A stretch of DNA of 64,000 bases from Aspidiotus rigidus (lineage: Eukaryota > Arthropoda > Insecta > Hemiptera > Diaspididae). The DNA is taken from positions 16,337,001 to 16,401,000 of the forward strand of contig JAVHKY010000004.1 in the NCBI GenBank assembly GCA_035079385.1, in the 5' to 3' direction. The notes under the pieces were generated by a model. The model did no database searches, was not told the DNA's origin, and saw nothing but the letters and a program-made list of their open reading frames with translations. Made by a program: the position numbers and the translations under genes. This document shows positions 3,023 through 64,000 of the stretch, in pieces (the stretch's first letter is position 1; each line of letters opens with the position of its first letter).

Positions 3023-4111
3023 CTAATTTTTTAAATGAGGGATAACTTCAATGTGTTCTAAAGCGATACGTTTCCAATATGAGTTTTCTCTTTGGAGGAG
3101 GACCTCGGATCCCTCTTCTATACTACGGCCACTAACAATTAGATGGTCCGCAAACGTTGATTCACCTAAATTCTTCTTTTCCCACGCTTCTAATTCGTAG
3201 CTAACGGCCAGTCTCACCGATGTAAACTCCCGTACCATCATAACACTTTACCTTATGTAAACACCACTCCTCTCGACCAGTTGAGTAGGGTCTACCCAAT
3301 TGAGAAGAGAACTTCCCCAAAAATGGGAGCCTTATCCAACGCTTTCCAATTGCGAGGGAGGAAAGTGGTGGAATCAAGGCTTTCCAAGTAACTTTCCTTT
3401 GAACTATACGGTAGAAATCTAGGTTGATCTCATTCACCCTGCCCAAATGCTTTATAGTGAACAGCCCCTTATGGAAGGCGGACTGACCCAACGGAAAACT
3501 GGTCAACCGATGAATTAAGCTGTTAAAAACAGCGAATTTGTGGGCGACAGGGCAAAAAGATTTGCCGTGGACAGTAATATTGGTCGAAGTAGCTTTCCTG
3601 TAAATGGCGAATTCATGGACGACGTCTCTACCGGAGATCGTCAAGTCCGAGTAATTAATAGATGAACCGCGAACGTCGAAGGCAAATTTTATGGAAAGGT
3701 ATTGATTATTTAGATACTTTAGGAACTCCAAAAAGAGATCCCGGGACAACATATTGTCGACGTACCTGTGCCAATAAAATATATGACTCAAGAACACTTG
3801 GCCAGAGGAGAAGAGATCGAGCTCAAATTTAGACATTAAGACCTCCGAGATGAGGGAACCCAACTCGAAAAATTTTCCATTAAATTTACAAATGTTGGGA
3901 GACCAACAAATATTAAGCAAATTGAAAAATTCTGCCAATTCTTCGTGACAAATACTTGATTGAACTAAAAGGTCTCCCGTGTGTTGGATGGCAATTGCTT
4001 TAGGGTTATTGGGAAATAAGCCGACTACATCAAATGAACTAAGGGTCGAACTCGGTGGAAGAATGACGTCTTTAAACGAACCGATTCGTTCCTCTAAGTT
4101 ATGGCCTGACA
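3023..4111 (-). pseudogene. Penelope-like element copy A: RT and GIY-YIG remnant
   Basis: The minus-strand frame from about 4110 to 3201 carries a Penelope reverse transcriptase. It has motif A (SSFDVVGLF), the HRYVDN catalytic block at 3753-3764, and the thumb region (SFCPVAHKFAVFNSLIHRL). It then reaches a GVYIGETGR GIY-YIG start, which is frameshifted into the rest of the nuclease domain (LGESTFADHL...RENSYWKRIALEHIEVI) at 3023-3241. The second catalytic aspartate of YVDD is N here, and the RT is truncated at its 5' end, so the copy cannot be active. The HINE at 2494-3031 cuts its C-terminus. It lies directly downstream of copy B in the same orientation, as in the partial tandem arrays usual for PLEs. 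Confidence 0.8.
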
Positions 4112-5923
4112 TAATTAGAACGACAAATACTACAGAATGAGTAAATGAATGAAGAAAGGTGCAAAAGCCGCAGAAATGAAACAATACAAAGTAGCGCAAG
4201 CACTTTCGGCTAAGAAGCCATCAACGGGCGGAGGATAGAAAGCGACTGACAGAGAAACAGTCGACAACAGAAAACAACGGTGCGACTCCTCGCGATGTGA
4301 GTCATACTCATAAATTAGTTCAACCAATTCCTCGTCCGGAATATACCTGTTAGGTACGGTTACGTTATTATTGGCAATATCATTTATTGTTGATCCATTG
4401 TCCATAGTTATCGCTGTTCAGGTGGCGAATGATCTCGATATTTTCCAACGCCATTCGTTTGAAATACGATCTTTCTCCATGAAGGAGGGTCTCTGACCCC
4501 TTTCTGAAACTGTGGCCGCACGTGATTAAATGGTCCGCGAAGGCCGATTCTCCCAAGTTGCCCTTTTTCCAGGCTTTCAAGTGCTCAGCCACTCTTATTT
4601 GGAGCTGGCGACCTGTCTCACCTACGCAGATTCCGTCACAGTCGTTACATCTTATACTATAAAACCCCCTTCCTCTGTAATGGTGGTATAGGGTCCTTCA
4701 ATCTAACAAACATTCCTTTTAATGTACTGAGATTATAGAAAACCGGCCGGAAACCAAAAAGCCGAAGGACGCGACTCAAATCTGACGAAAACTTACCCAG
4801 GAAAGGGAGCTTAATCCAACGCTTTCTGCCTTCACGACACCCCTCTCGAGGGAGGGAGGTAGTAGAATCAAGGCATTGCCGCGTGATCTTCCTACGGACC
4901 ATCAAGTCAATGTACAAGTTGACCTCGTTTACCCGGGCCAAGTACTTTATAGTGCGCAGTTCTTTCTGGAAGGCTGCTTGACTCAAAGGGATGTTAGTAA
5001 GTCGATAAATGAAACTATTAAAAGCAGCTATTTTGTAGGCGACAGGGCAGAATGACGCGCCGTGGACAACAATATCGGTCGAAGCATCTTTTCTGTATAC
5101 TGTGAACTCATGGGCCCCATCTCTTTCGGAGATGGTAAGGTCCAAGAAGTTGATAGTAGAATTACCGACCTCCAAAGTACATTTTATGGAGGGGGAACTG
5201 AGCATTTCGATACTTAAGAAACTCACCAAGGAGTTTATGGGGTCCTGTCCACACACTCGTCATCCACATATCTGTGCCAATAGTGAACGTGATTTAAGAA
5301 TGACTGGCCCGAGGAGGAAAATAGGTCAAACTCAAATTTCGACATAAAGACCTCCGAAACAATGGAACCCAACGGGGATCCAACGGGAATGCCCACTTCC
5401 TCCGGGAATTCAAAATATTTATCATTAAATCTACAAAAATTAGGGGACCAGCAGACGTTGAGTAAATCGAAGAACTCCTGCAACTCTTCATGAGGAGTAT
5501 TAAATTTAACAAGAAGGTCGCCTAAATATTAGAAAGTGGCCGCTTTTGGGATGTTTGGAAACAGACCGACCACATCGAAGGAGCATAAAATAGTACCAGG
5601 AGGGAGTACTTCATCTTTGACTCTTTGAGCCTATTGGCCAAGGAGACTGAATTTTTGACGGAGTAAGGAGACTCGTATTCAATATGATATTTAAACCAAC
5701 GGTCCAGGTATTTGGCGAGCGAGTAAGCGGGAGAGGAGACGTAGGATACAACTGGCCGCATGGGAGTATTGGCCTTATGAACTTTAGGCAACCCGTACAA
5801 CAAAGGAGGTACTGGGTTAGGTTCGAGCAAACGTTTTTTCAGTGAGGGTTTTGTAATGATAACGGAACTTTTATTAATAGCATTCCGAAAGTCTTTGACA
5901 TAGTGAGGGAAATTGAAGAGGAG
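4112..5923 (-). pseudogene. Penelope-like element copy B: RT, GIY-YIG and 3' pLTR-like end
   Basis: Minus strand from 5923 to 4112. The RT fingers show LLYGLPKVHKANTPMRPVVS, followed by SSPAYSLAKYLDRW. The catalytic HRYVDD block is at 5259-5270 with both aspartates intact. The thumb region and a GIY-YIG domain follow (GICVGETGRQLQIRVAEHLK, then LGESAFADHLITCGHSF to about 4390). A non-coding tail with a hammerhead-like stem-loop lies at 4194-4228. Frameshifts, for example between the YVDD segment and the thumb near 5250, break the coding region. Positions 4112-4835 are repeated in inverted orientation at 5924-6613. The N-terminal third of the RT is missing. Confidence 0.82.
4194..4228 (-). ncRNA. 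Hammerhead-ribozyme-like motif in PLE copy B
   Basis: Read on the minus strand: a GTTGATG segment, a GCT-TCTT-AGC hairpin (stem II position), CGAAA, then a minimal GTGC-TT-GCGC hairpin (stem III position) followed by TAC at the expected cleavage site. The order and the very short stem III fit the minimal hammerheads reported in Penelope elements. The first core segment lacks the final A of CUGANGA and no stem I is evident, so this may be a decayed or altered ribozyme. Confidence 0.35.
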
Positions 5924-6613
5924 GTGAAGGCAGAAAGCGTTGGATTAAGCTCCCCTTCCTGGGTAAGTTTTCGTCAGATTTGAGTCGCGTCCTTCGGCCC
6001 TTTGGTTTACGGCCGGTTTTCTATAATCTCGATACATTAAAAGGAATGTTCGTTAGATTGAAGGACCCTATATCACCATTACCGAGGAGTGGGGTTTATA
6101 GTATAAGATGGAACGACTGTGACGGAATCTATGTACATAGGTGAGACCGGTCGCCAGCTCCAAATAAGAGTAGCTGAGCACTTGAAGGCCTGGAAAAAGG
6201 GCAACTTGGGAGAATCGGCCTTCGCGGACCATTTAATCACCTGCGGCCACAGTTTCAGAGAGGGGTCAGAGACCCTCCTCCGTGGAAAGAGATCGTATTT
6301 CAAACGAATAGCGTTGGAAAATATCGAGATCATTCGCCACCTGAACAACGATAACGTAACCGTACTTAACAGGTAGGGATTGGTTGAACTAATTTATGAG
6401 TATGACTCACATCGCGAGGAGTCGTTAGTTAAATCATGATCTCACCGTTGTTTTCTGTTGTCGACTGTTTCTCTGTCAGTCGCTTTCTATTCTCCGCCCG
6501 CTGATGGCTTCTTAGCTGAAAGTGTTTGCGCTACTTTGTATTGTTTCATTTCTGCGGCTTTTGCACCTTTCTTCATTCATTTACTCATTCTGTAGTATTT
6601 GTCGTTCTAATTA
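5924..6613 (+). pseudogene. Penelope-like element copy C, inverted 3' segment with GIY-YIG
   Basis: This is an inverted duplicate of the 3' part of copy B. It contains the end of the RT region, a GIY-YIG nuclease domain from about 6119 to 6376 (YIGETGRQLQIRVAEHLKAW, then SAFADHLITCGHSF and RIALENIEIIRHLN), and the 3' tail. A short insertion just before YIGETGR breaks the frame of the GIY motif. The hammerhead-like motif at 6499-6531 has a better core than copy B (CTGATGG, then a GCTTCTTAGC hairpin and TGAAAGTG). It joins copy B head to head at 5923/5924. Confidence 0.8.
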
Positions 6614-7836
6614 CATCTTTAAGCCTCGCAGCCAAGGACACCGAAATTTGGGTGACTCAAACTCTACTCTAGATTTGAACCAACGGTCCAATAGTTTCGC
6701 TAGGGGAGTACGTGGGAGAAGATACAAAGGAACCGACAGGACGCATCGGAGTATCTTTCTTATGGACCTTAGACAGCCCACACAGGAGGGGAAGCACAGG
6801 GTTAGATTTAAGAAACAACCTTTTCAGCGATTGGGTTTTAATGAGAAACTTGCAACTGTTAATCACACGTCGAACTTCCTTCACGCGTTTAGGGAAATTG
6901 AAACGGTCATTTTTCTTGGCACCACACTGGGTGAGAACGTCATAGACCTTAGAGACCATCACGACAATGGCATTTCCTTTGTCAGCCTTCGTCCTCTTTA
7001 TCCCTTTGATTACCTCAACAGCAACTTCGTTTAGGCGAAGGAAGGAGGTGAGTATTGAGGACAAGGGCGGTACAATTTTTCTGCGTACTAACCCCAAGTC
7101 CAATTTTTATGGCTAGGTCAGTAACCACATTAGCCAAAGTATCAGCATTATTGACAGGGGGTAACCCAAACTTTTAAACCTTTCTTCAAGAGGTTCAACT
7201 CATCGCTATTGAACTCAACCTGATTGCGATTTATAATACGCGGCTGGAACTTTTGGACAACACTGATGTCAGTTCTCACTTCCTGGACAGTGGAGGCATT
7301 CAAATTTTGAAGGGAAGAAATTTTCTTATTTTCTTACGTTTTAACTTAGCTTCAAAATTACTAGATCCAACTCACCCGGATGGAGTAAACTAGAAAGCCT
7401 AGAATGGACCAGCAAGTTCAATCTTGTAGTAACGTTCAACTTCCCGTGCCACCTCCGCAACTCAGCACGGATCCATTTTTCCGTCAGGAATTTCTCCAAG
7501 TTTTTGCGGTCGTAACATCGCAGTCGGAGAACAGTTGAAACTTAATAAACTCGGGTTTAAGATGTAATAATTGCAGATATTTGCGGAGAAACCAAATGTG
7601 AGTTGAAAACGACAACCGTTGGTTTCGAAACTTCACGAGCAGAAATCGTAAGTACGCTGCATCAGCGTCATTAATAGTACTGATACGAGTTGCCAAGTTA
7701 TGGCCAGATATACTGAAAGGAGGCATACTCGAAAGAGTACAACGAGAAGTAAATTCGCAAAGACCACAGGAATATTTAAAACATCGGAGCGCGTTTGGTT
7801 AAGCAACCATTTTCAACGGAGACATGAAAGCAGTGC
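6614..7836 (-). pseudogene. Penelope-like element copy D: 5' half (N-terminal region and RT fingers)
   Basis: The minus strand starts near 7726 with a Penelope-type N-terminal helical region (FLRKYLQLLHLKPEFIKF). A gap of broken frame follows. The RT N-terminal block at 7103-6669 shows TKADKGNAIVVM, which corresponds to the KADKGN motif of PLEs, and later LCGLSKVHKKDTPMRPVGS and FVSSPTYS. It is cut at 6614 by the inverted copy. The 7676-7836 end is a direct repeat of 2198-2360 and includes a decayed hammerhead-like stem-loop at 7785-7819. RT motifs A to E are absent here. Confidence 0.75.
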
Positions 7837-8640
7837 TTTTGCGTGCCAGGGGGGCACTGCAGCTTGGTGGTTGCCGAGTAGAAGAAGGGGTTCGTCGAGG
7901 AAATTCTTTCAACACTGAAGTTATACCTGAAAGGGTCGATTCCGGTGTTGGAGGAAACAAAATTAAATGCATACGCAACCCGCACCCACTCCTTCATGGA
8001 GGACGAGTGGCGTTGCATAGCGAATAATAGGTAGTTCTATTGTGCTCCCATTGCCAAATTCCTCTAAACATTTTTCCGTTTCTATACATTCACTGAATCT
8101 CTTTCCCTGTTTCTGAATTCAACCACCACGATCTCATATACCCATCTGCTGATAGAAGGGCAGAAGGCTGATAGCTCGTTAATTAAAAGAAAAAGGTTAC
8201 TGTTCTGCCTTTATGATCAACATGTAATCCGTCATCTCCGCAATCGCCATCATTCATTACAAAATCAAGGTATGAAATTCTAATCTGGACGAATTGAAAA
8301 GGTATCCAATTTCTTTACGAATTGAGACTCCTTCGGTCAGGCGTATAATTTAAGCATGAAAATTTGCGAGGAAAAAGTCTGGTCTTGTCGTGACGGGAAC
8401 GACGTGTGACACTGCTTTTTGGCTGTTTTGTCTCATACAGATGTTACTCTTTATATAAAGTTTTCAGTTCATACATCATTTCCTCATGCTAAACGCGTAT
8501 ACAGGAATTCGAACGTGCGCAATTTTTCAGCGAAAGATCGTTTAAGAAATTGCGAATGAAAAACAAAATATAGCTGAAAAACTTTTATCAATAGCATGCA
8601 CGTCGTGTTAACGACGAATTGATTCGTAAGTGAAAAACTA
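7837..8640. other. No recognisable gene
   Basis: AT-rich sequence between the Penelope cluster and the tolloid promoter region. Short opposite-strand open frames overlap each other and show no family features. Confidence 0.4.
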
Positions 8641-12100: not shown

Positions 12101-15100
12101 GATTGCCCTGCCACACAGCCTACGTAATCGATAGTAATAAAACACATTACCCTATAATGAGTATACATTGAGAGGCGAAGAGGAAAATTTGTCATTTTCG
12201 GAATTTGACATACCTATTAAGGAGTAATCGACAGCGATAGACCACGTAGTCACGTTCTAGACCGATTTTACACGTCTGGTGATGATGATTTTGAAATAGA
12301 TTCTAATGATACAATTTCGATGTATAGAAATTGGTTTCTCTGTAAGATGAAGCCTGAGAAAATTTCTCAGTCTTTTTGGTCTTCGTCTGTTCTTGAATTC
12401 TCTTAGGCATTATGGTTAACGCTCGGTTTGTTGTTACTCAAGCAAAACTTTCAAGTTTCTAAGTCATCACTTTGCACCAGTTCCCCTCCACGAAAGCTGG
12501 GTTCGTGGGAAGATACTTGAAATTGATTTAATCATGCTATGAGTTAAGAATTTTATTTTCACCCTCCCTCCATGAGAAGTTTTTTTTTTAGCGGGGAACC
12601 CGCTATCCACTTTGTTAGGAGATTACATCCTCAGAAAACGTCCGCGTCCGCGTCCGCAGGTTAGGTTAGGTTACGGGACTTGGAAGAATTTCGAGTCTCG
12701 AGCTATATATGATAGGAGGGGGACTTGTAAGAATTTCAAGTCTCGAGCTATATATGATAGGAGGGGGGGGGGACTTGGAAGAATTTTGACTTTCGAACTA
12801 CCGTCCGCCGTCCAACCAAAAACTTGGAAAAATTTTGAGACTCGAGCTATATATGATAGGAGGGGGACTTAGAAGAATTTCGAGTCTTGAGCTATATATG
12901 ATAGAAGGGGGTCTTAGAAGAATTTCAAGTCTTGAGATATATATGATAGGAGGGGGACTTGGAAGAACTTCAAGTCTCGAGCTATATATGATAGGAGGGG
13001 GACTTGGAAGATTTAGAAGAATTTCGAGTCTCGAGCTATATATGGTAGGAGGGGGACTTAGAAGAATTTCGAGCCTCGAACTATATATGATAGGAGGGGG
13101 ACTTGGAAGAATTGTGACTTCCGAGCTATATATTATAGAAGGGGGACTTAGAAGAATTTCGACTCTCGAGCTATTTATGATAAGAGGGAATGTAGAATGA
13201 TAATTTCGAATTGAATTATATGACAAGAATATCAACTCAGTTCCACACCACCTGAGAGGTCGAGTTAAGGAATTGCGGGTTCCCCGCTGCCATTGCAATG
13301 TCTGCAATGGCTTCTAATTTTTTTCAAAACGCGCCTTTACAAGCGACTGGTTAACTAACACTACCCCTGGGGCATATTATTACATGTAGTTGTTTCCCTC
13401 ACTGTTGCCACGTACTTAGGTTTGGTGATAGAGTCAATTAATGAGCAGAATCAGGACTAGATCTAATGTTCTCTATTCTCCCGAATTCGTCCAGTGTAAA
13501 GAAGAGCGTCTAGACTGTCGTAGTGTTGACATGCCACCTCTAATTCTAAAATTTGTGAGCCGTCGCCCTGGGCGCAAGACATCACGTACTTGCTCTTTAA
13601 TGACTTCGACCGATATTATAGGGACTTGCAATAATTTTGTTCTTGGAAATTGGTCATCGAAGAGGGTGAAGAAGCGGGATTGCGGTGCTAGGAGGTCCTT
13701 TCGCGAGATAAGTGATGCTTCATATACGAATGACTTCAATCTACATTTCCGGCCTCAAAGCAGAGACATCCTCTTAATTTAGTGTAATAACCTTGACCTA
13801 TTTTCGGAATTCGGAAAAATTTTGATGGTGGTACTCAATTTATGAATATTTTTAGGTACTTCCCTCCTTCCTCACTCCAGACTCTGCGTCCGATATGGCC
13901 GTTCGTTCTCATATTCTTGGACCCTGAAGGACCTTGACCTTCATTATGTACTTGAGAAAATTTCGACTTTGGGATTTAAGGCGCGTTCCGAGACCCTCAA
14001 CCAACATTGATGAATATCGCCCTATAAGTTTCAAAATTCTTTCAAGGGACCACAACCACAGTTCTCGTCACCCTGAGGAACGTTCGGATAACCATTGACC
14101 ATCGGGTGACGATCGGATGACGGTAACTTGGAAGACAGATTGGTAATAAGAATTTCATAAGGAGTCGCGATGGCCAGTTTTCAGATGCTATAACATACAA
14201 ATCGCACTCGAGATGTAAGAGAGGTCGGCTAGGTAGTCATCCTTCATTCACGACTTAACTTGATTTTGTAAATCACGAAAGTACCGAACAAATCATGCTC
14301 GGTGTCGTTGAGTAATTCGTAGGCCGTATCGTTTCTAGCCTCTATCCTGTTTGGCACTCTGCCTTTTGGCGAGCTATGAAGAAGAGAAATATGTGCGGTC
14401 CGTAGAAGGAATGTGGTGAGTAAAAGCGGGCTTACGGAGCTGAGCGTTACGGTGCTCATTAATACGGTCCCCAAGAGCACGACCGCGTTACAGTCGCCAC
14501 AACTAATCCTATGAAACCCTGTTCTTAGGGTCCTCGGGGTTAAAGAGATGATAAATGGAGTGGGGAACATAGAAGACAGTCCTGTAGCCATGATTCTAGA
14601 GCAACTTTTGAATTTTGTGTAAGGGCCAGAACCCGTCTTGTCCTATTTGTGAAGCAATGGCCTTTTTTTCTTCTGCGAACTAGTTTTTGAACATTAATTG
14701 TCGTTAGAAAACGCGATATGGGAAATAATTTCAATTACTTTTTTATAATAGCGAATGATCAAAGGGAGACTTTAGCTAGCCTGTGGGTCCTGGCCACATG
14801 AGCCGCGCTCCTATGAGAGGTATGGAGTAGCAAATCTCGGTGGATGGTTAATCCAGTACAGGCAGGCTTCCGAAAAATGTCGAAATCAAAAACTCAGGTG
14901 CTCGTGGAACTAAGGAGGATAACTTATTTCCGCAAAATGGCATCATCGGCTGACGTTTGGTGGTTTCGGATCGCGTTCCTATGGCGTAAGGAGGTGACAG
15001 TATACACGAAGTAAAATTTGAATGAGAGGTGAAAAGCACTATAGGTAATAATTCTTCCTGCAGAGAGCTTATATCAGACTGAAACGTCCCTCTCTTCCAT

Positions 15101-40765: not shown

Positions 40766-43700
40766 ATGGATTCGAATACCAATGAGAAGAAATCATCGCC
40801 GAGTGCCGATAATTTGAATCGTAGATCGCTTCCTCCTACTCTAGGAGATGATTATTTATTCTTACGTATTTGCGTGCCAGACTTAAATATCCAAAAGTGC
40901 TTCCAGTTTCGTAAGAATCACAAAATATCCGATATTAAGGAGCAATGCATCACTTCGTTACCTGTGGTATGTTTTTGATCGAGTGTAAAATCTGCTTCAT
41001 ATTAGTCAAATTTTCAATCTGTCAATTGGTGTTTTTATAGGAACTGAAGCAGAGTTTCAATTATGGTCTGTTTTGCCCGCCAACTGGTACGAAATGCGGG
41101 AAATTTTTCGACGAAGAAAAATTACTAAACGAGTATCCGTTCGCCGACTACGTCGGATATCTAGAAGTAGGTTAATTTAACGTGATGTCCTTATAACAAA
41201 ATTATCTCATTTTTAAACAACGTTTTGGTTTTTAGCTGCGATTCAAACAACGAATATATAGATCGTCCAAAATCGATGAAAAGCAATTCAAAGCAATCAA
41301 TACGAGAACCAATCTACGAAGGTTACTCGAATACGTTCACAATGGACAAGTTGATAAAGTTACAAAATTATGTTCCAAGGGATTAGATCCCAATTTTCAT
41401 TGCGTCGAGACTGGAGGTAGCTATTCTTTTTCGTAAACGTAAGTCTCGGAAAGAACCTCGTCTTATCTGATTTGTTGTGTTTCAGAAACACCGCTCACGC
41501 TTGCCAGCTCCTTGCCGAAGTCAGGGAAGTTATTGATGGCGCTGGTAAACGGGGGTGCGTTCTTAGATTTCCGTAATCTAGTCGGATCGGCGCCGTTACA
41601 TCGGGCTGTTGAAAGCAATAATTTAGAAGCGTTAATTACCTTACTCGAACTGGGATCGTCTCCGAATTATAAAGATTCGCGAGGATTTACTGCGCTGTAC
41701 CTGTCAATCACCCGAAAAACGGATGTGCTCATTTGCGAAAGACTGTTACGCGATAAAGCCACAATCGGTGCTCAAGATATACAAGGATGGCAAGAAATTC
41801 ATCAAGTGCGTCACTTTCTTCGATCGAATTCTACCTCGAGTGTCTTGCCGTTTACTTAGTGGTTGTATTTTTCAACAGGCTTGTAGATACGGTTTAGTAC
41901 AACATTTGGAACATCTATTATTTTACGGTGCCGACGTGAATGCGAAGAACGCATCGGGCAATACGCCATTACACGTGTGCGCTGTGAATGGACAAGAAGC
42001 GTGTGCTAGAGTGCTACTTCAAAAAGGCGTCCAGACGGACGCGTTAAATTTTGCTAATCAAACTCCGTATCAGGTGGCCGTAATCGCGGGGAATTTGGAT
42101 CTAGCTGGTATCATTCAGAGTTATAAAGCTGCTGATTTCGGTGAGTTTTTTTCAATCTTCAACAAGGCAATTTGTGAAGAGTTTAATGATTATCAAGGTT
42201 TTTTTGTGCAATATTTGTTACGTAATCTGTGAAGAAAGAAGATTATTTTACATTTTTGTATCAGTATTCGTGAGAGTTCATATCCGCAATCGTATTTGAC
42301 CCGTGTAGTTAGTTTATGTATGACAAAAGAAGAAGAAATAAGTACTTTGTCTCAAAGACTTAGATATCTTTTCATACTGTCTTTAAAGAGGGTTTTGTAA
42401 TATTTTTTGTTTAGTGGAAAAAACTGTGAATGATTGTTGCGACGTCATCAGTAATAACAGTTCCGGTATTGGAACTGCCAACAGCAGCGATTTTACCGAG
42501 GCTAGCTTCCCTATAAAAAGTAACAACAACAGTTCTAATTCGTCCAATTCAGGTGTGTATATATAATATTTCATTCGTGAAAGTTAGGGTGTTAAATCTG
42601 TTATCAGACTTGGAGCGTCGTTGTTAGCAGGGTAGAAAATATCAGTATCTTACAAACTTTTCTGTGTCTATGACATGTCCGCTTCAAAAATTTTTAACAG
42701 AATGTGCTTCTCAGTCTTGAATTTAAAATCTTTACATCAATCGTTTGAATTTAGACTAATATATCCGGGTATGAACTAGACTTCGATGATAAACTTGGAG
42801 GCTTGTCACCGCGGAGTGACCACGTTTTATCAAAAATATTCTCTTTCTGAGTAGTTCTATTGGTCATGACTCATGAATTTATTTCTATCCTCTCATGACT
42901 CATTTTATGAAATGGAAGTAACATTTAGGAGTCAATTGGCCATTGACGGACAATAATTTGATTTTATTCCGCCGTTTATGCTTTAAATTCAGTTTGAGAG
43001 AGTTGGAAAGACAAGAGTATGTCGATCGCATTACGATGTATTTAAAATTCACATATCCCAAATTATGTTGCACGAAAAAATCTAATTTTAATTATAAAAT
43101 TGAATGACGAATTAGTACCACGTTGAATGTTCCCATGACTTCGTGTGGATTATATCATCATTATCTTATCATCCCGTAATCAATGTTGGTAATCATATAT
43201 CCGTAGGAACAACATTGGAAGAGAACTTTAGTCCGCTAATGTGTAAGTCGTCGAGAGCGTCGATCGCGTGCTTCGAGAATGGTGCTAACGAATCGCTCCT
43301 TCTACCTGTTTATCGGCCGTCGAAAAATTTAAAAGACAGAACTATGAATACGAACAAGTATTATGCGACAGCGCCACGCCAAAAACATCAGTGAGTATTT
43401 GATTTGAGAAAACTAGCGACGTAATATTGAAAATTTTAAAATTATCAATAATCGTGTCTCGTAGGTTACCTGCCGAACCTAGAACAGTGGTGCTGCATAA
43501 AAGTAAACGTGGATTCGGATTTGTATTGCGTGGTGCAAAAGCTACGGCTTCCCTCGTTGAATTGAAGACCTCCGGTATGTGCCCCGCTTTGCAATACCTG
43601 GATGACGTCGACAAAGGGAGTGTTGCCGATCTAGCCGGCCTACAAAAAGGAGATTACTTGTTAGCCGTAAGTTCCTTCATTTTACTTTCGAGGGAACCTT

Positions 43701-47585: not shown

Positions 47586-47592
47586 TATAAAA
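47586..47592 (+). promoter_or_regulatory. TATA-box-like element
   Basis: TATAAAA stands 37 bases before a GC-rich segment that contains a well-placed ATG. It might be the core promoter of the small frame at 47629, or of an upstream exon of the serpin. Confidence 0.3.
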
Positions 47593-48012: not shown

Positions 48013-51000
48013 ATGTTGCCAGAAACTCTGAACACGGATGATGATCCTTCAAGAGATATTGCTATTTCAATTCAGAAGTTCTCGTCGAGCTTGTATCCGG
48101 TAAATTTATAAAAATCTGCTCCATTTAGTTGCATAGCCTCATAGTACTGATGCAAGTTTTTTCAGGTCATGGCGAAAGAAAAAAAACTTCTATTTTCGCC
48201 ATTCAGTATCTACTTTCAATTAATTTTGCTCTACCTCGGTGCCGTAGACGATACCGCTGTAGAAATGAGAGGATATCTCCATCTTCCCTTTTGCAGAGAA
48301 CGTTTATTGATGGGGATGCGAAAGGTTCTGCGTAAACTCAAAGTGAGTTGCTACTTTACAATCTACTGTAGCGCATCTTCTTAGTTCGTGAGGATCACTG
48401 GTGAAATGGTCTTAATTTCTAGCAATCATCGATCAAGATTATGATGGAGATGTTCGTCCATCATACGTACAAAATAAGAGCCAAATTTCGCGGTGATGCT
48501 ATGAAATTTTTGTTTTGCAATGTACGATATCTCGACTTCGCGGCTCCCCAAGAAACCACAAGACTCATTAATTCTTGGGCTGCTTCGAATAGCAATCAGA
48601 AGATAAGCAATCTTATTCCCCCTGGTAAGTAATATTTCAGTCAATATTTTTCATTCGCTTAAGATTTTGATGTTCAAATCCTTTGTTGTTTTGTAGGCGT
48701 GATCGATGAGTTCTTGGAATTCGTTGTTTTGGGCGCATTTTGTCTCGAAAGGAATTGGTTGAATGAATTCGAGGTGGAACGTACGTCTAAAGACGTATTT
48801 CTTGTAGATGAAGACGATCCCGCGGAAGTAGAGATGATGCATATCAGTGGGCAGTTTTATTATTTGCGAAAAGCGACATTCAAAGCATTGGTATTGCCCT
48901 GCAAGGTAATGATAGTCGATCATTCACATTATTCATAGAATTGTTTTTTTCAACTTGGGCTATGATAAATTTCAAGCAGCATAATATTTTGAATGACCTG
49001 ATCCTTGTTGAAAATCATGAATTTTTTCGACGGAAAATCGTGTCTTGGGTATCCTAAAATATTCGTGATAAGTTTTCATCTTCTTTAAATAACATCTTGA
49101 AGTACCATATTCTTTTCTTTTTTTTTTTTTTCAGGATGAAAAGTTGAAGCTAGTAATCGTCTTACCGCAACAAATCGAGCATTTGACCTATCTAGAAGAG
49201 AAAATATCGGAACTAGACGTAATGAGAATTCTTCAAGACGCAAAAATGAAGGAGATTGATGTGACTTTACCGAAATTTAGAAGGGAGAGGTTGAATCACA
49301 AAATTCATATGCAGCTCCGAAAGGTGAGTATTCTCGTAAATATCGATCTGTCGCAATTTGGTGGTGTCGTTCATATTCTTATTCGTTTTTAATTTTAGGC
49401 GGGACTGAAGATTATTTTTGATCCGAAGAAAGCCAATTTCACCGAAATTCACAAACTTGGACAAGAACTTGTGTGCGTGGATTATATTAAGCAGAAAGTC
49501 ATGATTGAAATCAATGAAAGAGGAATCGAAATCATCGTTCAGCTCGATGGAATAGAAGATAAGCCTCCCAGTCCTGCGAGAAGACGAGTATCAGATTCCG
49601 AACTCATACGCGAAGTTACAGAAAAAGTTGCTAAAATTAGCGAAGATAGTGTGATATCAAGAGAGCAACCAAAAAAGCAAGAAAAAGCAACATCTGAAGA
49701 AGCTATGGTATCAGAATTAGTGGCGATTTCTAGTTCTAGTTTTGATGAAACAAAAAATTACTCGGAAGATGATCAAGAAGAAGATAAATTTTCTGGAGGA
49801 ATAGAGAATATTTCGGAAGAATTACAGCCATCAGCTGAATCCTGTCACAAAGAAATAGCTAGTAAAGTTGAAATTGGAACAATTCCTAAAAATAATACAG
49901 AAGCAATTGTTCCGGTGGAAAATGAAGAAGTGTTCAGAAACGTGGGTGCTACGCCTGAAGTTAATTGTTCTGAAACGGAAACTGAAACTCACGTTCGAGA
50001 GAGTAGTTTAAAGTTAAGTGATAGACATCTAGAAGATGGTGAAGAAAGAATTTCAACGACCGAACTAATGGAAGTTGATTTCGAGAAAACAGAAAGTGTC
50101 CTACAGTCAATGGTTAAGCAGAAACTCATGATTGAAGTCAGTGAAAAAGAAAATGGAGTTATCGTTCAGCTCGAAGGATTAGAAAAAAAAACTACCAGTT
50201 CTGCGAGAAAACGGGGTGCGGATTCAAAACCCATCCTCAAAAAGACAGAAAAAGTTGCTAAAATTAGTAAAGATGGTGTGATACCATGTCCGCAACCAGA
50301 TGAGGAAGAAGTAACAACATCTGAAGAAGCCACGGTATCAGAATTAGTGGCGAAAGAATCAGAAAAGTCCACTGTAACAGTTCCTAATTTTAGATTCAAT
50401 GAAGCAAAAAATTACTCAGAAAATGATCAAGAAGAAATGAAAGATTATTCAAGCGTAATGCTCAAACAGAGTATTCCTGAAAGAAGAGACAATTTTAGAG
50501 AAATAGAGAATAATTCAAAAAAATCACAACCGTCAGCTGAATATTATCGCAGAAAAACAGCTAATCAGGTTGAAATTGAAACAATTCCTGAAAATAATAC
50601 AGAAGCAATTGCTCGGGTAGGGAATGGAGAAGTGTTCAAAAACGTAAGAGCTTTGCCTGAAGTTAATTGTTCTGAAACAGAAACTGAAACTCACGTTGGG
50701 GACAGAAGTTCAAAGTCAAGTGATAGACGACTAGAAAATGGTGAAGAGAGAATTTTAACGATCGAGCAGATGGAAATCGAAGTCGTTGATTCAGTAATTG
50801 TAGAAGAGACTGGAATTGTTAAGAGTGCTATACCTACAGTTTCTGAGTGTAATGTTCAAGAGCCAAACTATGTGAAGTCTCATATTCACCAAATGGAAAT
50901 CATCGAACAGAAATTTGAAGATACTCCTGCAATTCTTGAATCTCACTATGAAGAAACCAAAGGAGCTCTATCAGTAGTAATTGACAATAGTGAACTAGTT

Positions 51001-51521
51001 CCTGAATTGGTCGAAAGAATGGACGAAGTAGAAATTGAAGACTGCAGGGCTGAAACCGAGACCATTTATGGTCCAAGTGAGTAGCACTCACTTATAATGT
51101 CAGAATATTGATCATGCGTTCCTGTGATGCATGTGTTATCATTTCTAAACTTTTAGGTACCTCCAAAGTTTTTAAATCGCACGATGAAGAAATAGAAGTT
51201 TTACAGCATGTTGTCGAGAAAGTTTCTGAAGGAAGAAAAAGTGAGGCTGAAATAACGACTGAAGACACGGGTGATCAAAACGAGTCAAATTCTTCCGGTG
51301 AAACATCTTATACTTTCATAATTTCAGTACTTATAATGAACATGTTCTTGTAATACATTTTTTTTTTCTCTTTCTTAGAAGAGGCCGACGTGCTGTGGCA
51401 AGATTTTACCGGAACATCGGGTGAGCCTGATTCACATTTCACAGCAAACCATCCATTCATTTACTACGTTCTTCATGATTGCTCAATATTGGTGATCGGC
51501 AAATACCTTGACCTTGAATGA
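48013..51521 (+). CDS. Serpin-fold protein with giant reactive-loop insertion
   Basis: Exons: 48013-48099, 48166-48342, 48423-48624, 48697-48905, 49135-49323, 49399-51076, 51157-51297, 51379-51521; 941 aa. Serpin landmarks occur in order: LLFSPFSIYFQLILLYLGAV, INSWAASNSNQKISNLIPPG, VEMMHISGQF, VTLPKFRRE, GLKIIFDPKKANF, then IKQKVMIEINERG at the proximal hinge (about 318-330). The distal strands FTANHPFIYYVLHDCSILVI end the protein (from residue 915). Canonical serpins need about 45 residues between hinge and HPF; here there are about 590. The insert is acidic and Ser/Thr/Glu-rich, with a 209-residue tandem repeat. The hinge lacks the small-residue run (ERGIEII in place of EEGTEAAA), so protease inhibition is unlikely. 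No signal peptide is encoded, which suggests a cytosolic protein or a missed upstream exon. Confidence 0.85.
49486..50780 (+). repeat. Tandem 627 bp coding duplication within the serpin loop exon
   Basis: Unit 1 (49486-50112) and unit 2 (from 50113) align in frame over about 209 codons. Shared anchors are KQKxMIE at the hinge, VIVQLEG/IIVQLDG, TEKVAKIS, TSEEA-VSELVA, KNYSE-DQEE, QPSAE, NNTEAI and PEVNCSETETETHV. Each unit starts with serpin strand 5A/hinge sequence and continues with the acidic linker. Small indels keep the frame, so the duplication is under protein-level constraint or is young. Confidence 0.85.
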
Positions 51522-57389: not shown

Positions 57390-60300
57390 TTAAACTGAGA
57401 AATCCGGATCGCTCGCAGCATCATCGGATTCATCCGATCTATACGACTTCTTTTTTCTTTTATGATGATGCTTCTTATGTCGATCTGACTTCTTACTCTT
57501 GTGCGACCGATGACCATGAGAGTGCGAATGACGAGACGATTCTGGGGGTTTAGGTGCGACAATGGTCAATTTAGGAATTCGTAAGGGTGTCACCTATGCG
57601 AGTAACAAAAGGTCCTTATTTTAGAATACACTCACCCTATTGAAAATACATAGATAGAAACCACCATACTAACCTGAGCATTATTTGGCGGATACGCATT
57701 GTTCCCCCCGGTACCAGGGATCATTCCTGGCTGGCCAGGCTGGGCGTTATTTGGCATTTGATTATCGGACGAGGAAGCTTTTATGTGGTACTCGCCGTCG
57801 ACCGGCGCGCTCGGACCCGAATGAACGTTATTCGCTCTCGTGGCAGGCAGTGATTTATTTTTACTATCGCCATCGTCATCATCGTCGTCTTCTCGATCTA
57901 ATGATATGATCAGCTGTTTGAACTGTGAAAAACGAGAGAGTAATATTTTTGAATTACAGCCTTGAAATATGCGAACAATTGATAGGGGATGAAAAAATAA
58001 TAAAGTACCTCAAGATATTCGGCGATAAGAGCCCGTTTTTCTGGCTCAGTTAATCGGGCGTCGTCACTAACGTTAGCTTTTGACTTCAGCTTCTGAAGCA
58101 CTGCTTTTGGATGGAATTTGGAATTATTCTTTCTATTCAACGACTTCTCGTATTGTTTAGCCGTTTCAGGCGAGTACAGAGCGATTTTGCTAAAAAATTA
58201 TCGTGAATTAATTCGGACATTTTTCAAGTTAATAACACAAGCTATCCACAGTCACTCAACAGGAATACTTACGAATCGGTGAATCCGTACAGAGTTTTTA
58301 AATGTTGCTTGAGCACCAACAACAAAAGACATCCCTGCGAAGCTGTGATACATTCTTGTAAAGCGGTCGCATCTTCCGGCACTCTGCTTAGCAGGGACTC
58401 TTCGTCCTCATCGTCGTCTTCGTCAACGTTAGCTGACGGATCTTGACCCGGTCTTGCATCCGGATTTGGTAGCAACGACTTTAAACAGAGTGAAAAGAAA
58501 AATACACATGAATACAAGCTTAGATTAGTCGTGTTCTGTGGCCCGAAATACTCACCTCTTTGAACGACTGCAACAAATTCGTGCCGTTAACTGAGATCAT
58601 AATATTGATTTGATGGATAATGAAAAGGGGCTCATCCAGCACTTGGTATGGAAAGTACGCTACGTTATCTGCTAGATACAGCATTTGAGCCAGACTCGTT
58701 TTCTGCAAAAAAGATGAACAAAATATTACATCACGAAAAATTGTTCCCGAAGGAAATTACGAACAAACACGTACGACTTGTTCTTCAAACTGTTTTAAAA
58801 TCGACATTAGTAAGGCCCGTCGTTGTTGTTTGCTGCGTAATATCGAATAAAGGAATCCGTTTAACGCAGATGGTAACTCTGCTTCTTTAACGCGAAATCC
58901 GCGGGCCATGTCGCCGCCCTGAATAATGCGCTGCAACTGATACGACAACTTGATACCGGTCTGAGCTTTCATGTGGATGAAACCCGGATACTTCTTCTCG
59001 ATCTCTTGCAGTTGTTTGTCCGCGCACGAACTAATACTACGATCTTCGTCGGTGCTCATACAAATCAAATACGGAACGATCTGTAACGATAAGGCGTTTG
59101 AGTGAGGAAACGAGATACATTCAAATTGTAATTGATGTAAAATTTTGCTGAGCACAGAAGTATCTTTTCGAGTGAATAAGCGTAAATTTGTGAACTTTGA
59201 TCCAATCACTAGCTCTTTCGTAGAAAGAAGTGAAGGGGTGTAACAATTAGAGAAAGGTCCTATAATGTAAAATAAAAATCGCATCCATGCAGTACACATA
59301 TTTAAAAGGGATTTTATGAAAGATAAGCTCAATTTTGGAATTTTTTCTCTCTACCCGCTATAGGAATGGGTTTCTTGATCATTCTTTGGATAAGATTCAT
59401 TTCTGGGCTTTTTCTTAGTTAGAATCTCCCAAATTTCGAAAATTAAGCGAGTTTTGTTGCATAAAAATGAAGGGAAAAGGCTTAGTAAATTTCTTTAAAT
59501 CAAACGCCAATTGCCACCAAGGATCTTTAATTCTCTTCAACTTTCAAGTTATAGCGAAACTGTTCATTTCCCACTTCTCATCTGTTTCAGCTGACGCCGA
59601 TTACGAAGACCATTTTCTGACTCCCGAACCCCATGCAGAAGCTCTCCCCTTTTCATTTCTATTTTGCCGACCCCACCTCTGCTCACAAACTCCTCATCTT
59701 CTTATCTGATCTCCTCTTCTGCCCCACACCTCTACGCTAAAAAACCTTCACATCAACACAATCCAATAAAGCGACTAAAAAACCATACAAGAATACTTTC
59801 TCACCTGTACAGGATGCACCAATCCTTGCGACAAGATCAACTGGATCACTCCGAGAGCCGCTTGTCGAACCGCGCTGCTTGCATGCAAGAATGACTCCAA
59901 AATATCTTTCAAGTACAGCTGTATTATCGTACTCGCCATACCAGAAGTAACATCACCCATTTCTTTCAAATTTTCTTTCTTACTCAGCGACGCCCCTGAA
60001 ATTTAAATAAATATTAGTATTGGAGCGATTAGGCGTGACATTAAAAAACCAAAAGCGATGAGAAAAAACAACTCACAATCTTCATCTTGTTTGATCATTC
60101 GTTTTTCTTCCTCTTGAAGATATACTTTGATATTATTAAGAACCTGAAACAGACAAATTGCGATTCATCAGCCGGAAAAAATTACAATTTTCATCGATTA
60201 AAAAAAAAAGTACGATGGACGAAAATAATACCTGTACTTTCATGGGAACAAGTGCGCTATCTCCACGCATGAGCATCTGATAATGCGCCATCAATTCTTG

Positions 60301-63300
60301 ACCCATCATATATTCGTAATGCCGGATACACATCGAACCTACTGATCTTAAGGCAAATAAACTAGATTCTCGATCTTGCAAATGCATAAAATATGTCAAC
60401 GTTTCGAACACTTCGTTACAGATATTATCCTGAAATTATCGACGAAAATTTTGAATTAACTTTTAAACAACAGGAAAAAAAAGAAGACACGCACTCGCAA
60501 TACTTACCGCTAACTTGTCTCCCCGAACTTCTTTATTGTTAAAATCAAAAAATCTGAGCATTAAACCAACGATATACATGGAACGACGAAAGTCAACTCG
60601 TACAGACTGATTATTCAGTATGTTAGGATTGCTGCCACTCTCTAGAATATCTCTTAGCTTTTGTAACGGTCCTACAAAGGAAACGCACGAACCATAACGT
60701 TACAAACATGCTATTGAATCATCCTTAGGTGCAACGAGTACTTACTGAAATATCTGAGGAAACAATCTCTTATTAGGGCGAAATTATGAGTTACATTGTT
60801 CACAACAGACCCCAAACACGATATGCAGCTTAAAATGACCGTTTGATCGTGTTGGAATATCAGCTTTACAGAATCTTCTTCCAGTTGTGATAAGAACATT
60901 TCGCTGGCATGTTCCAACATTGGCACAACAATTTCTAAGATTCTCGCCACACAGCTAATGATCTGATAGTCGCCTGGCGTCTGAAAAACAGAACGAGAGT
61001 GTGATCACGACGTCATCGTGAACAGGATCATTGATGCGAGCATTCAGAATAATATTTACCTGACATTTTAAGCTCAAGTACGGCTGCAAAGTGATCGCGT
61101 GTTCGACCAAGAGTTGCGGTCGAATTTTCGCGAATAAGAATAACGTGGTAACACAGGCGACCAATCGCTGCGGAGCATTTCCACCGCGACCGTCCAACGT
61201 TATGATGTTGTCGACAAGGCGATCGACTATTTGCTTACAGGCAGTCACCAAGACTTTCGGAGGCTCGGTTACCACCTTTGTCGAATCGTCTTTGTCTTCC
61301 TTTGGCTTGAAAAGACTGACTAGCAACTGTTCGAACCAGTCTAATCCCATTTCCTTGCATGCGGACACCACCTCCGTAATATGCATAACTTTTTGTTGCA
61401 GCGGCGAAGTGTCTCCTGGCTCTTTATCTCGCACCGGTGTGAACCACATGTTCTGAAAGACTTCCATGACTAATTTGCGAATACCGTCTTCGTCGTTCAC
61501 TCGTCGAATCATCTTCACGCAGATCTCCGGTATCTTCGGGTAGTCCGGGTATTCGATGCAAATATCTTTCAAAATTTTTATCACCCGTTTACGTACGCTC
61601 ACTCCCGTATCGAGAATACGTTCCGAAAGCATCTCGTAGTAGTTGTCGATTAACTTGGGTTGACTGAGGACGAATTTACCGACCAGATCGACGGCCGCTT
61701 CGCGGACAGACGTTGAATGGTCGAGAAAGGAATGGCAAACACCCATTTGCATTTCTTTCAGCGCGAGTACTTCGGGATCCGCTTCCACAATCATGGTTAG
61801 ACATTTCATCGCTTTTGTTCGAATATTGACTGAACTTTCCATGAGAACTTTGATAATCTGGAATGAAGAAAAGAAATGAATTAATCAAGCTAATTTCTCT
61901 AATTCCGATTAGAGATATAAGGTACACTTACGTGTTTCAGATAAGTTTCGAAGCTTTTTGAAAACGGCCTTTTCGACGCCAAATATCTGGATACAAGTTC
62001 TGCGCTCTCGTAATCGATATACGTGTGCATGATATCAGTTTGTAATTTATTCGCTACGTAGGAATCCTGACATTCGAACGGGTTCACTTTGCTTAGGTAG
62101 AACTGCTTCCGTGTTTCGAAATGAACGTCGACTTTTTCCTTAATTTCTTTTTTGGTCTCTTCATCTTCCTCCTCGGTGTCTTCTGATTCATCCGAGGAAT
62201 CTATAAGCACAACATTGGCCAATCCCAGATAACATAATTATTGAAAACTAAGTACCTAAATTGAATCTTTGAAAAAAAAGTACCAACCGTCTTTACGTTT
62301 GTACTTCTTTTTTATTTTATTCGTCTTGGTTGTTTTTGTAACGGATGCAGTAGCCTCGTTCAACGCGTCTTGGTACCATTGACAAATATAAAAATGACGC
62401 GCGAAAGACAAAGACTCATCATTGTGGCTTTTTACTGCCAGGTAATCGAGTAGCACTCGCTGCAAAAACTGCGTCCTTTCTTCGTCGTTTTCAATTTCTA
62501 GCTGATCGTACTGTGAACAAGAAAAAGAAGACAAATTTTAGACACTGTCATTCTTACGGATTATGCAATCCTCAAAACAAAGTCATTTTACACACCTTGG
62601 TAGGATCATCCTCGTCTTTCATCTCTTCGGCACGTATATCTCTGATAATTGAGTTGATAGTTGACAATTTCAAATGCGAAGTCACCGAGTCCTTCCTTAA
62701 ACGAGCGGCTATCACCCCGAGATAATCTAGCGACGCCACTCGAAGCAACATCTCACAGTTTTTGTTGACAAATTTCGTGACGAGTAATTTTCCCAAAACG
62801 CTCAACATTAATTCGGAGACCGGCCATTCCGGCTTATTCACCGTCGTTAACAGATCTTGAACGAAATTTTCAAACAACGGACGATAGTCAATTTCTTCGG
62901 ACTTACTGCTACATTTATTAAGGAACACCATTAGGAAGTGAGACGCGGTCGTCGAAGCTGCTTTGAATCGTCGCGATACTTCGCTGTCTGGGTCCCACTA
63001 AACGAAACAATTACGCGTTATTACATCTCTCCGAAGTTCACAATACCTCCAACTTTGACCTGCACTTACCGATGAACGTTTGGTGTTAGCATTTTTAGGT
63101 AATACAACCATACACTGAATTAGTTGCAGAACCAAGGCGGTTAAAATCTGAATATACTCCTGAGAACTAAGACGATAAGCCCGCAAACTTTGTTTCGAGC
63201 TCGGTAAACGAGCCATCGAAGCAAGAATATCGTCTAATAGAAGTTTCCGATGCTTCTCATATTTCATGAAGATCTGAAAACGCAATTTTTCTTTTATAAA

Positions 63301-64000
63301 ACTGTTACATGATAGAATATTATAATATTGCCGAAGTGATCGAACTTACGGAAGTGACGAGCTTGAGCGCGTTCAATTGCAATTCGTTGATACCTTCGAC
63401 GAAGAATGGCGCGACACCCATCGTCGACAGATGTAAAATCGAATTATCTGTCAGAGGTTGAATATTCAGGAGCTCGGATAACAGTGAGACAATCTCCACC
63501 AATTTTGTGTACAACGAAATCAAACTTTTATCCCGCACTTCTTTGTGACTCGTTTTCTTTTTACGGGCACCCGGTGGCTCTTTTTTCTGTTTGGTGCGGT
63601 ATACCGGATCGTAAACCGGATAGATAGTATTATGCAGTTGGAATTTAGCGAACATGATGATTCTGTCTATCACATCTTCCAAGTATACTTTTTTGTGCAT
63701 ATTAGGTGACGTAAGAATATACAACGCGACCAAGGAAGCGTCTACCGCTCTCGATATTCTTTCCATGGCAGTTTCCATCCACAATTTCCGCTCGTATTCG
63801 TCTTCGTTCTATATGGTAAATGAAAATGAAGGGAGAAAAAAACACGAAATGATAATGAATATTCATAGGCAGGTACTATTCTTAAAGCTGTGTATGAACT
63901 TACGTCGTCGGCGATAGGCGAAACTTTCATTCCGGATCGAATATTCTTCTCAAGAATGCCTAGAAGTCGAATAATACGATCCGACGGTATCGACTCCATG
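57390..64000 (-). CDS. Nipped-B: Nipped-B (NIPBL/Scc2 cohesin loader), C-terminal 18 exons, partial
   Basis: Minus-strand exons, 5' to 3': 64000(partial)-63904, 63808-63350, 63273-63070, 62997-62596, 62510-62288, 62200-61932, 61857-61060, 60980-60746, 60671-60508, 60429-60232, 60143-60077, 59995-59805, 59080-58775, 58702-58556, 58478-58273, 58189-58009, 57922-57674, 57593-57390. Phases agree and give about 1530 residues. HEAT-repeat blocks match NIPBL: LYILTSPNMHKKVYLEDVID, YRPLFENFVQDLLTTVNKPE, LRVASLDYLGVIAARLRKD, VSVRKRVIKILKDICIEYP, MIRRVNDEDGIRKLV, the Nipped-B C-terminal domain (LKEMGDVTSGMASTIIQLYL, KYPGFIHMKA), LADNVAYFPYQ and LLVLKQHLKTLYGFTDS. The protein ends in a His/Lys/Ser-rich tail (HKKHHHKRKKK). 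With MAU2, it loads cohesin onto chromatin and regulates enhancer-promoter contact. The N-terminal half lies beyond the right edge. Confidence 0.93.

Follow-up and report, generated by a model that had tools for sequence, protein, structure and literature searches.

The window analysed here, a 64,000-nucleotide stretch of the Aspidiotus rigidus genome, carries on its plus strand a serpin gene (48013–51521) in which 557 residues are inserted at the reactive-centre loop. With moderate confidence, we read its product as a non-inhibitory serpin scaffold bearing a disordered acidic loop, which would have arisen by the loss of a splice donor and a tandem duplication. The gene has eight exons, all with GT/AG borders, which join in one frame to encode 941 amino acids. 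We infer that all of these exons are carried by a single mRNA.

Exon 1 (48013–48099) contributes 29 codons (DIAISIQKFSSSLYP) that by position belong to helix A. Its start codon, the ATG at 48013, is uncertain, and a further exon could lie upstream. A counterpart of exon 1 was sought in the paralogs and not found; no convincing upstream exon carrying a secretion signal was detected within the window, nor were the first exons of the paralogs. The modelled N-terminus, with its uncertain start, does not resemble a signal peptide when judged by eye. A TATAAAA sequence at 47586–47592, about 0.4 kb 5' of the modelled start, is a possible promoter of an unmodelled 5' exon. Exon 2 (48166–48342), with the motif FSPFSIYF, has phase 0-0, identical in the five modelled paralogs. 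It is followed by exon 3 (48423–48624, phase 0-1; LDFAAP, INSW and LIPP), exon 4 (48697–48905, phase 1-0), whose 209 nt equal the length in the paralog models, and exon 5 (49135–49323, phase 0-0; VTLPKF). Exon 6 (49399–51076) corresponds up to position 49546 to the paralogs' entire 148-nt hinge exon and then continues into the loop, staying open for 1,530 nt more past the aligned hinge/loop junction. A stop-free frame by chance can be rejected, as an open run of 559 codons has a probability of about 3 × 10−20 at the local base composition. Exon 7 (51157–51297, 141 nt, phase 1-1) is one that the paralog models do without. Exon 8 (51379–51521) is a loop/C-terminal exon of ordinary size, with 47 residues ending in FTANHPFIYYVLHDCSILVIGKYLDLE and with the phase 1 of the paralog loop exons. 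The initial annotation had described the WQDFTGTS segment as separately spliced; instead, it and the distal strands are encoded by one exon, whose phase and size are those of a paralog loop exon. The P17 glutamate is residue 328 and the HPF motif occupies residues 919–921, 591 residues further on, so that the positions given earlier for hinge and HPF hold in the 941-residue join. If the insert is subtracted, 34 residues separate P17 from HPF, compared to 31 with the third loop exon of paralog L013 by our own count.

Serpin was the only Pfam family to match the 941-residue protein up to E 1. The match (PF00079; E = 9.1 × 10−63, 213 bits) consists of two stretches, the best of which places residues 20–333 on profile positions 3–324. 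Exon 8 together with the two preceding residues aligns with profile positions 336–369 (E = 0.0025), where its 17.5 bits by themselves lie below the family cut-off of 27 bits. The Pfam check thus bears out the earlier claim of serpin sequence on both flanks, with the distal match alone under the cut-off. In a sequence search against solved structures (PDB), 193 distinct sequences were matched, with a best E of 4.9 × 10−32; we take the best 60 of these 193 to be serpins from their names. Because of the Pfam and solved-structure matches, we regard the core as complete up to the hinge, and by sequence the product would be classed with the serpin superfamily and not with the inhibitory serpins. Ovalbumin, maspin and MENT, all of serpin fold, are among the PDB matches. 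Ovalbumin and maspin are non-inhibitory serpins, and the insert of MENT is located in a different loop; to our knowledge, none of the three has a giant insert in the reactive-centre loop.

A Pfam profile search of the same genome yielded at least 124 exon-level serpin matches, and 14 stretches (L009–L022) were taken for paralog reading. Among L001–L022, the loci nearest to the window protein by tblastn were L009–L012 on contig C81, L013 on C10 and L014 on C3; L002–L004 gave weak matches and the remaining 13 none at E 0.05. Gene models were made for five of the six nearest loci (L009 was left out). The window core is 33–37% identical to four aligned paralogs, and the phases of exons 2–6 and of the loop exon agree between the window gene and all five modelled paralogs. 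The hinge exon of the paralogs has phases 0-1 and is followed by a loop exon of phase 1; the seven intact paralog loop exons encode 44–46 residues each. A motif scan found three loop exons in L013, two in L010 and one in each of the other four paralog stretches, and a single HPF exon in the window between 47001 and 56000. One loop exon of L010, near 7825–7949 on the reverse complement, has an in-frame stop (FLIIF*NKTPLFVG) and may be a decayed loop exon. The conserved phases and the phase-1 loop exon would place the window gene with serpin-1-type genes, in which loop exons are spliced to the hinge.

A loop scan of 15 other serpin loci, which is no census of the full set of exon-level matches, found the hinge in frame with the C-terminal piece, at ordinary length, in L002, L005, L007 and L020. 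L015, L016 and L018 showed the C-terminal piece alone, or a hinge in a different frame within about 250 nt, and eight loci had no readable loop. In L021 (G000:C10:155000-162000; L021:3-2747 and 3912-4724), a Ser/Thr-rich open frame continues directly into a serpin N-terminus; it measures 914 residues inside the stretch and 1006 by the genome-wide Pfam search. The interval from hinge to RPF in this locus also appears longer than usual.

The window gene departs from its paralogs at the hinge. Positions P17–P8 (49516–49545) read E-R-G-I-E-I-I-V-Q-L, and the small-residue run is gone, as had been noted initially: the window has NERGIEIIVQL, whereas the paralog hinges are NEEGTEAAAAT or, in L012, NEEGTEASAAT in five loci and NEEGTEAAAVT in L009. 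Compared with the inhibitory consensus E-[EKR]-G-[TS]-x-(AGS)4, as given in PMC2770083 and PMC10671500, P17–P15 fit, while P14 and P12–P9 fail. A hinge of the form I-E-I-I-V-Q-L would probably not enter sheet A in the normal manner. The GT donor that directly follows the hinge in 6 of 6 paralog loci (ACAG/GT in five, ACAA/GT in L009) is replaced by AT in the window, where the corresponding place (49546–49552) reads TCG/ATGGAA and contains no GT. By this comparison, the window gene has lost the donor after the hinge.

With the hinge/loop junction of the paralogs as reference, the insert comprises residues 338–894 and sits exactly at that junction, at about P7. The earlier estimate of about 540 extra residues was right in recognising a large insert and needs correction in its size, to 557. 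The insert has a net charge of −58 and 35% charged residues, and its FoldIndex is −0.126 compared to +0.204 for the core. AlphaFold2 in single-sequence mode gave pLDDT values below 50 for exon-6 residues 94–558, a weak indication, as such runs are often poor. The insert is therefore predicted by FoldIndex to be probably disordered, which agrees with the initial annotation of a long acidic, probably disordered insert located precisely in the reactive-centre loop. The annotation was correct on acidity; its description of the insert as simply low-complexity fails, as two diverged tandem copies make up about three quarters of it.

In the 509 insert residues that were compared with Pfam, no family scored above its own cut-off; MCM6_C (E 0.015) and RYYR-CCHC (E 0.13) remained under their cut-offs and were taken as chance matches. 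The NCBIfam library, which covers prokaryotes, had no match in the insert or in exon 8. A repeated element was rejected as the source of the insert, as a search of the same 441-Mb genome at E ≤ 0.001 matched the exon-6 protein to itself alone. Comparison with the paralog introns gave nothing beyond matches of 14–19 nt (E 0.15). From its position, the insert probably derives from a former intron. Searches for a long-loop homologue of about 518–1647 amino acids at E ≤ 0.001, a weak kind of negative, returned none among 7996 candidates scored with the first query and none among 2948 candidates with residues 1–345 as the query.

Exon 6 contains a tandem duplication. Copy 1 (49486–50112; IKQKVMIEINERG) begins within the hinge strand, and copy 2 (50113–50829; VKQKLMIEVSEKENG...) follows it immediately, with an approximate end, as similarity is almost lost in the last 9 aligned codons. 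At the DNA level, the repeats are seen as matches of 79% over 240 nt (49487/50114) and 80% over 300 nt (49791/50493). Over 209 aligned codons, the copies share 76% of nucleotides and 57% of amino acids, with dS of 0.33, dN of 0.28 and dN/dS of 0.85 (bootstrap 0.58–1.26). The gaps in the DNA-level alignment are 27, 48 and 15 nt long, every one a multiple of three. Between the copies the reading frame has been kept, and residue conservation is much lower; the most conserved blocks of 25 codons, PEVNCSETETETHV included, reach 68–72% identity. The evidence for a third copy downstream is limited to weak self-matches (E 0.003–0.004 without composition correction). Because the unit begins in hinge-coding sequence, loop sequence adjoined the hinge before the duplication, and this start would be the strongest argument from sequence for exon 6 being a single exon. 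The possibility that the insert is a separate gene was rejected, as the duplicated unit includes hinge-coding sequence.

The same data bear on whether this is a decaying serpin gene, which would have lost inhibition first and would now tolerate a long loop that is so far uninterrupted. The loss of the inhibitory hinge, a dN/dS near 1 in the loop and the low identity to the four aligned paralogs all fit such decay. However, 8 of 8 exons are open with intact borders, the serpin match remains at 213 bits, and neutrality would be unlikely to leave two stop-free copies with every gap a multiple of three: when neutral change was simulated under our own rate assumptions, both copies stayed stop-free in 3 of 5000 runs. 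We consider decay unlikely.

The favoured history, with donor loss and duplication leading to a scaffold, would begin with a diverged member of a serpin family in which splicing joins the hinge exon to one or several distinct loop exons. Once the hinge exon had lost its 5' splice site, translation would have read on into what was probably an intron, and an open, acidic, probably disordered stretch would have been retained. The tandem duplication, starting within the hinge strand, would then roughly have doubled this stretch, with the small additional exon 7 now preceding the one loop exon found. The resulting product would still have serpin sequence running from helix A through to the distal strands, with the extra residues at about P7, and both ends of a long acidic chain would be anchored in the folded platform. 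As to what the predicted scaffold does, we can only guess at partner binding or a bulky, protease-accessible tether; the initial annotation had raised decoy and cargo display as possible roles. The low residue constraint in the insert argues against a precise binding function and for a bulk property such as length, charge, spacing or protease accessibility over a precise binding surface.

Splice-site strengths were scored with a donor matrix from a metazoan consensus and an acceptor matrix built from 25 paralog acceptors. The seven donors of the window gene score 5.9–12.1, with exon 7 the weakest (5.9) and the others at 7.3–12.1. The acceptor of exon 7 is also weak (3.9), and only that of exon 2 is lower (3.4). 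These two weak sites leave room for the long exon to serve mainly as an alternative C-terminus, with the mRNA ending in exon 6 or by way of exon 7 and the distal strands joined sometimes or never; read-through would meet stops at 51082–51084 after exon 6 (ending GPSE) and at 51351–51353 after exon 7. Such an arrangement is rather improbable, however, as exon 8 is open, with a strong acceptor (10.8), the family phase and a match to the serpin C-terminus, and as the exon 6 donor scores 8.9 and a direct join of exon 6 to exon 8 is also in phase. Moreover, the serpin fold is incomplete without the distal strands.

We give a similarly low probability to cryptic splicing within exon 6, by which shorter loops would be the rule and the giant loop a minor form. 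In-phase GT sites at 50038, 50215, 50275 and 50740 score 5.6–7.5, within the range of true donors, and could on these scores give shorter inserts; an out-of-phase GT at 50616 reaches 8.8. Against this, both tandem copies have stayed open, and none of the 20 best of the 108 GT sites in 49399–51379 (scores ≥ 2.6) falls between 49547 and 49913, so that these scores predict no cryptically spliced loop of normal length, though among the paralogs' 25 donors two themselves score just 2.6.

The bait mechanism of inhibitory serpins requires a short loop with small hinge residues, and it is this dependence that keeps reactive-centre loops short. Since the window protein has neither the short loop nor the small residues, it is predicted to be a non-inhibitory platform. 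That it is still an inhibitor, altered in reach alone and with its P1 either in exon 8 or somewhere along the long loop, is very improbable: exon 8 is indeed a loop exon of ordinary size, but P14 is I and P12–P9 are I-I-V-Q, off the consensus cited above from PMC2770083 and PMC10671500, and placing P1 in exon 8 would separate it from the hinge by more than 560 residues, a distance that we judge too great for known loop insertion. The duplication has also placed a second hinge-like strand, VKQKLMIEVSEKENGVIVQL, in the loop, 209 residues past the first; its block is 52% identical between the copies and shows no special residue constraint. We give little credence to the idea that this second copy inserts into sheet A as strand 4, which would produce a six-stranded, relaxed-like state without cleavage and leave about 190 disordered residues looped out between the copies. 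If the favoured reading of a non-inhibitory scaffold is true, the gene shows how far a serpin with a 557-residue loop insert can become a display scaffold once inhibition is abandoned, and it offers a concrete route, in which one donor is lost in a family that splices hinge to loop and a tandem duplication follows.

The insect serpin-1-type genes Pteromalus puparum PpSerpin-1 (PMC10513286) and Cydia pomonella CpSPN1 (PMC10671500), which have alternative loop exons, resemble the window gene in their serpin core and share with the window gene's paralogs separate loop exons spliced just past the hinge; among 192 genes with alternative splicing at the C-terminus, 161 are reported to splice one nucleotide past the hinge (PMC10513286). 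The window gene differs from both in that it has neither the hinge donor nor the inhibitory hinge, and in that one loop exon was found, with 557 residues in between. Annotated reactive-centre loops in UniProt span 20–28 residues in 78 serpins (PMC13215094), and the unusually long loop of Iripin-8 has 11 extra residues (PMC8431025). The loop of Cydia pomonella CpSPN26 is termed extremely long and the protein hence predicted to be non-inhibitory, as here, but its insert of nearly forty residues is more than ten times shorter than that of the window gene (PMC10671500). Drosophila Spn100A, like the window serpin, combines a large insert (294 aa) with doubtful inhibitory function; its insert, however, follows an N-terminal 44-residue block and is not in the reactive-centre loop, and some hinge residues are kept (PMC2770083). 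The window gene was rejected as an equivalent of Spn100A by the position of the insert, as its core is continuous over profile positions 3–324. A non-exhaustive literature search, which included parts of PMC13116602 and PMC10629668 with nothing relevant to the novelty of the loop insert, found no reactive-loop insert longer than that of CpSPN26 (PMC10671500), in keeping with the initial statement that no serpin with a comparable loop had been described.

Elsewhere in the window, upstream of the serpin, a plus-strand gene that may be Shank-like has ankyrin-repeat exons at 41443–42232 (Pfam Ank in 41443–41859). Exons on the minus strand at 58757–63808, with a Pfam Cohesin_HEAT match (E = 1 × 10−14) in 60955–61884, have the look of a cohesin loader, presumably of the Nipped-B type. 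Broken open frames on the minus strand at 3201–7106 resemble a reverse transcriptase with a GIY-YIG end, which we take to be probably a Penelope-like element. Two short-repeat open frames on the minus strand, at 2564–2998 and 12798–13313, share a near-identical translated unit about 10 kb apart.
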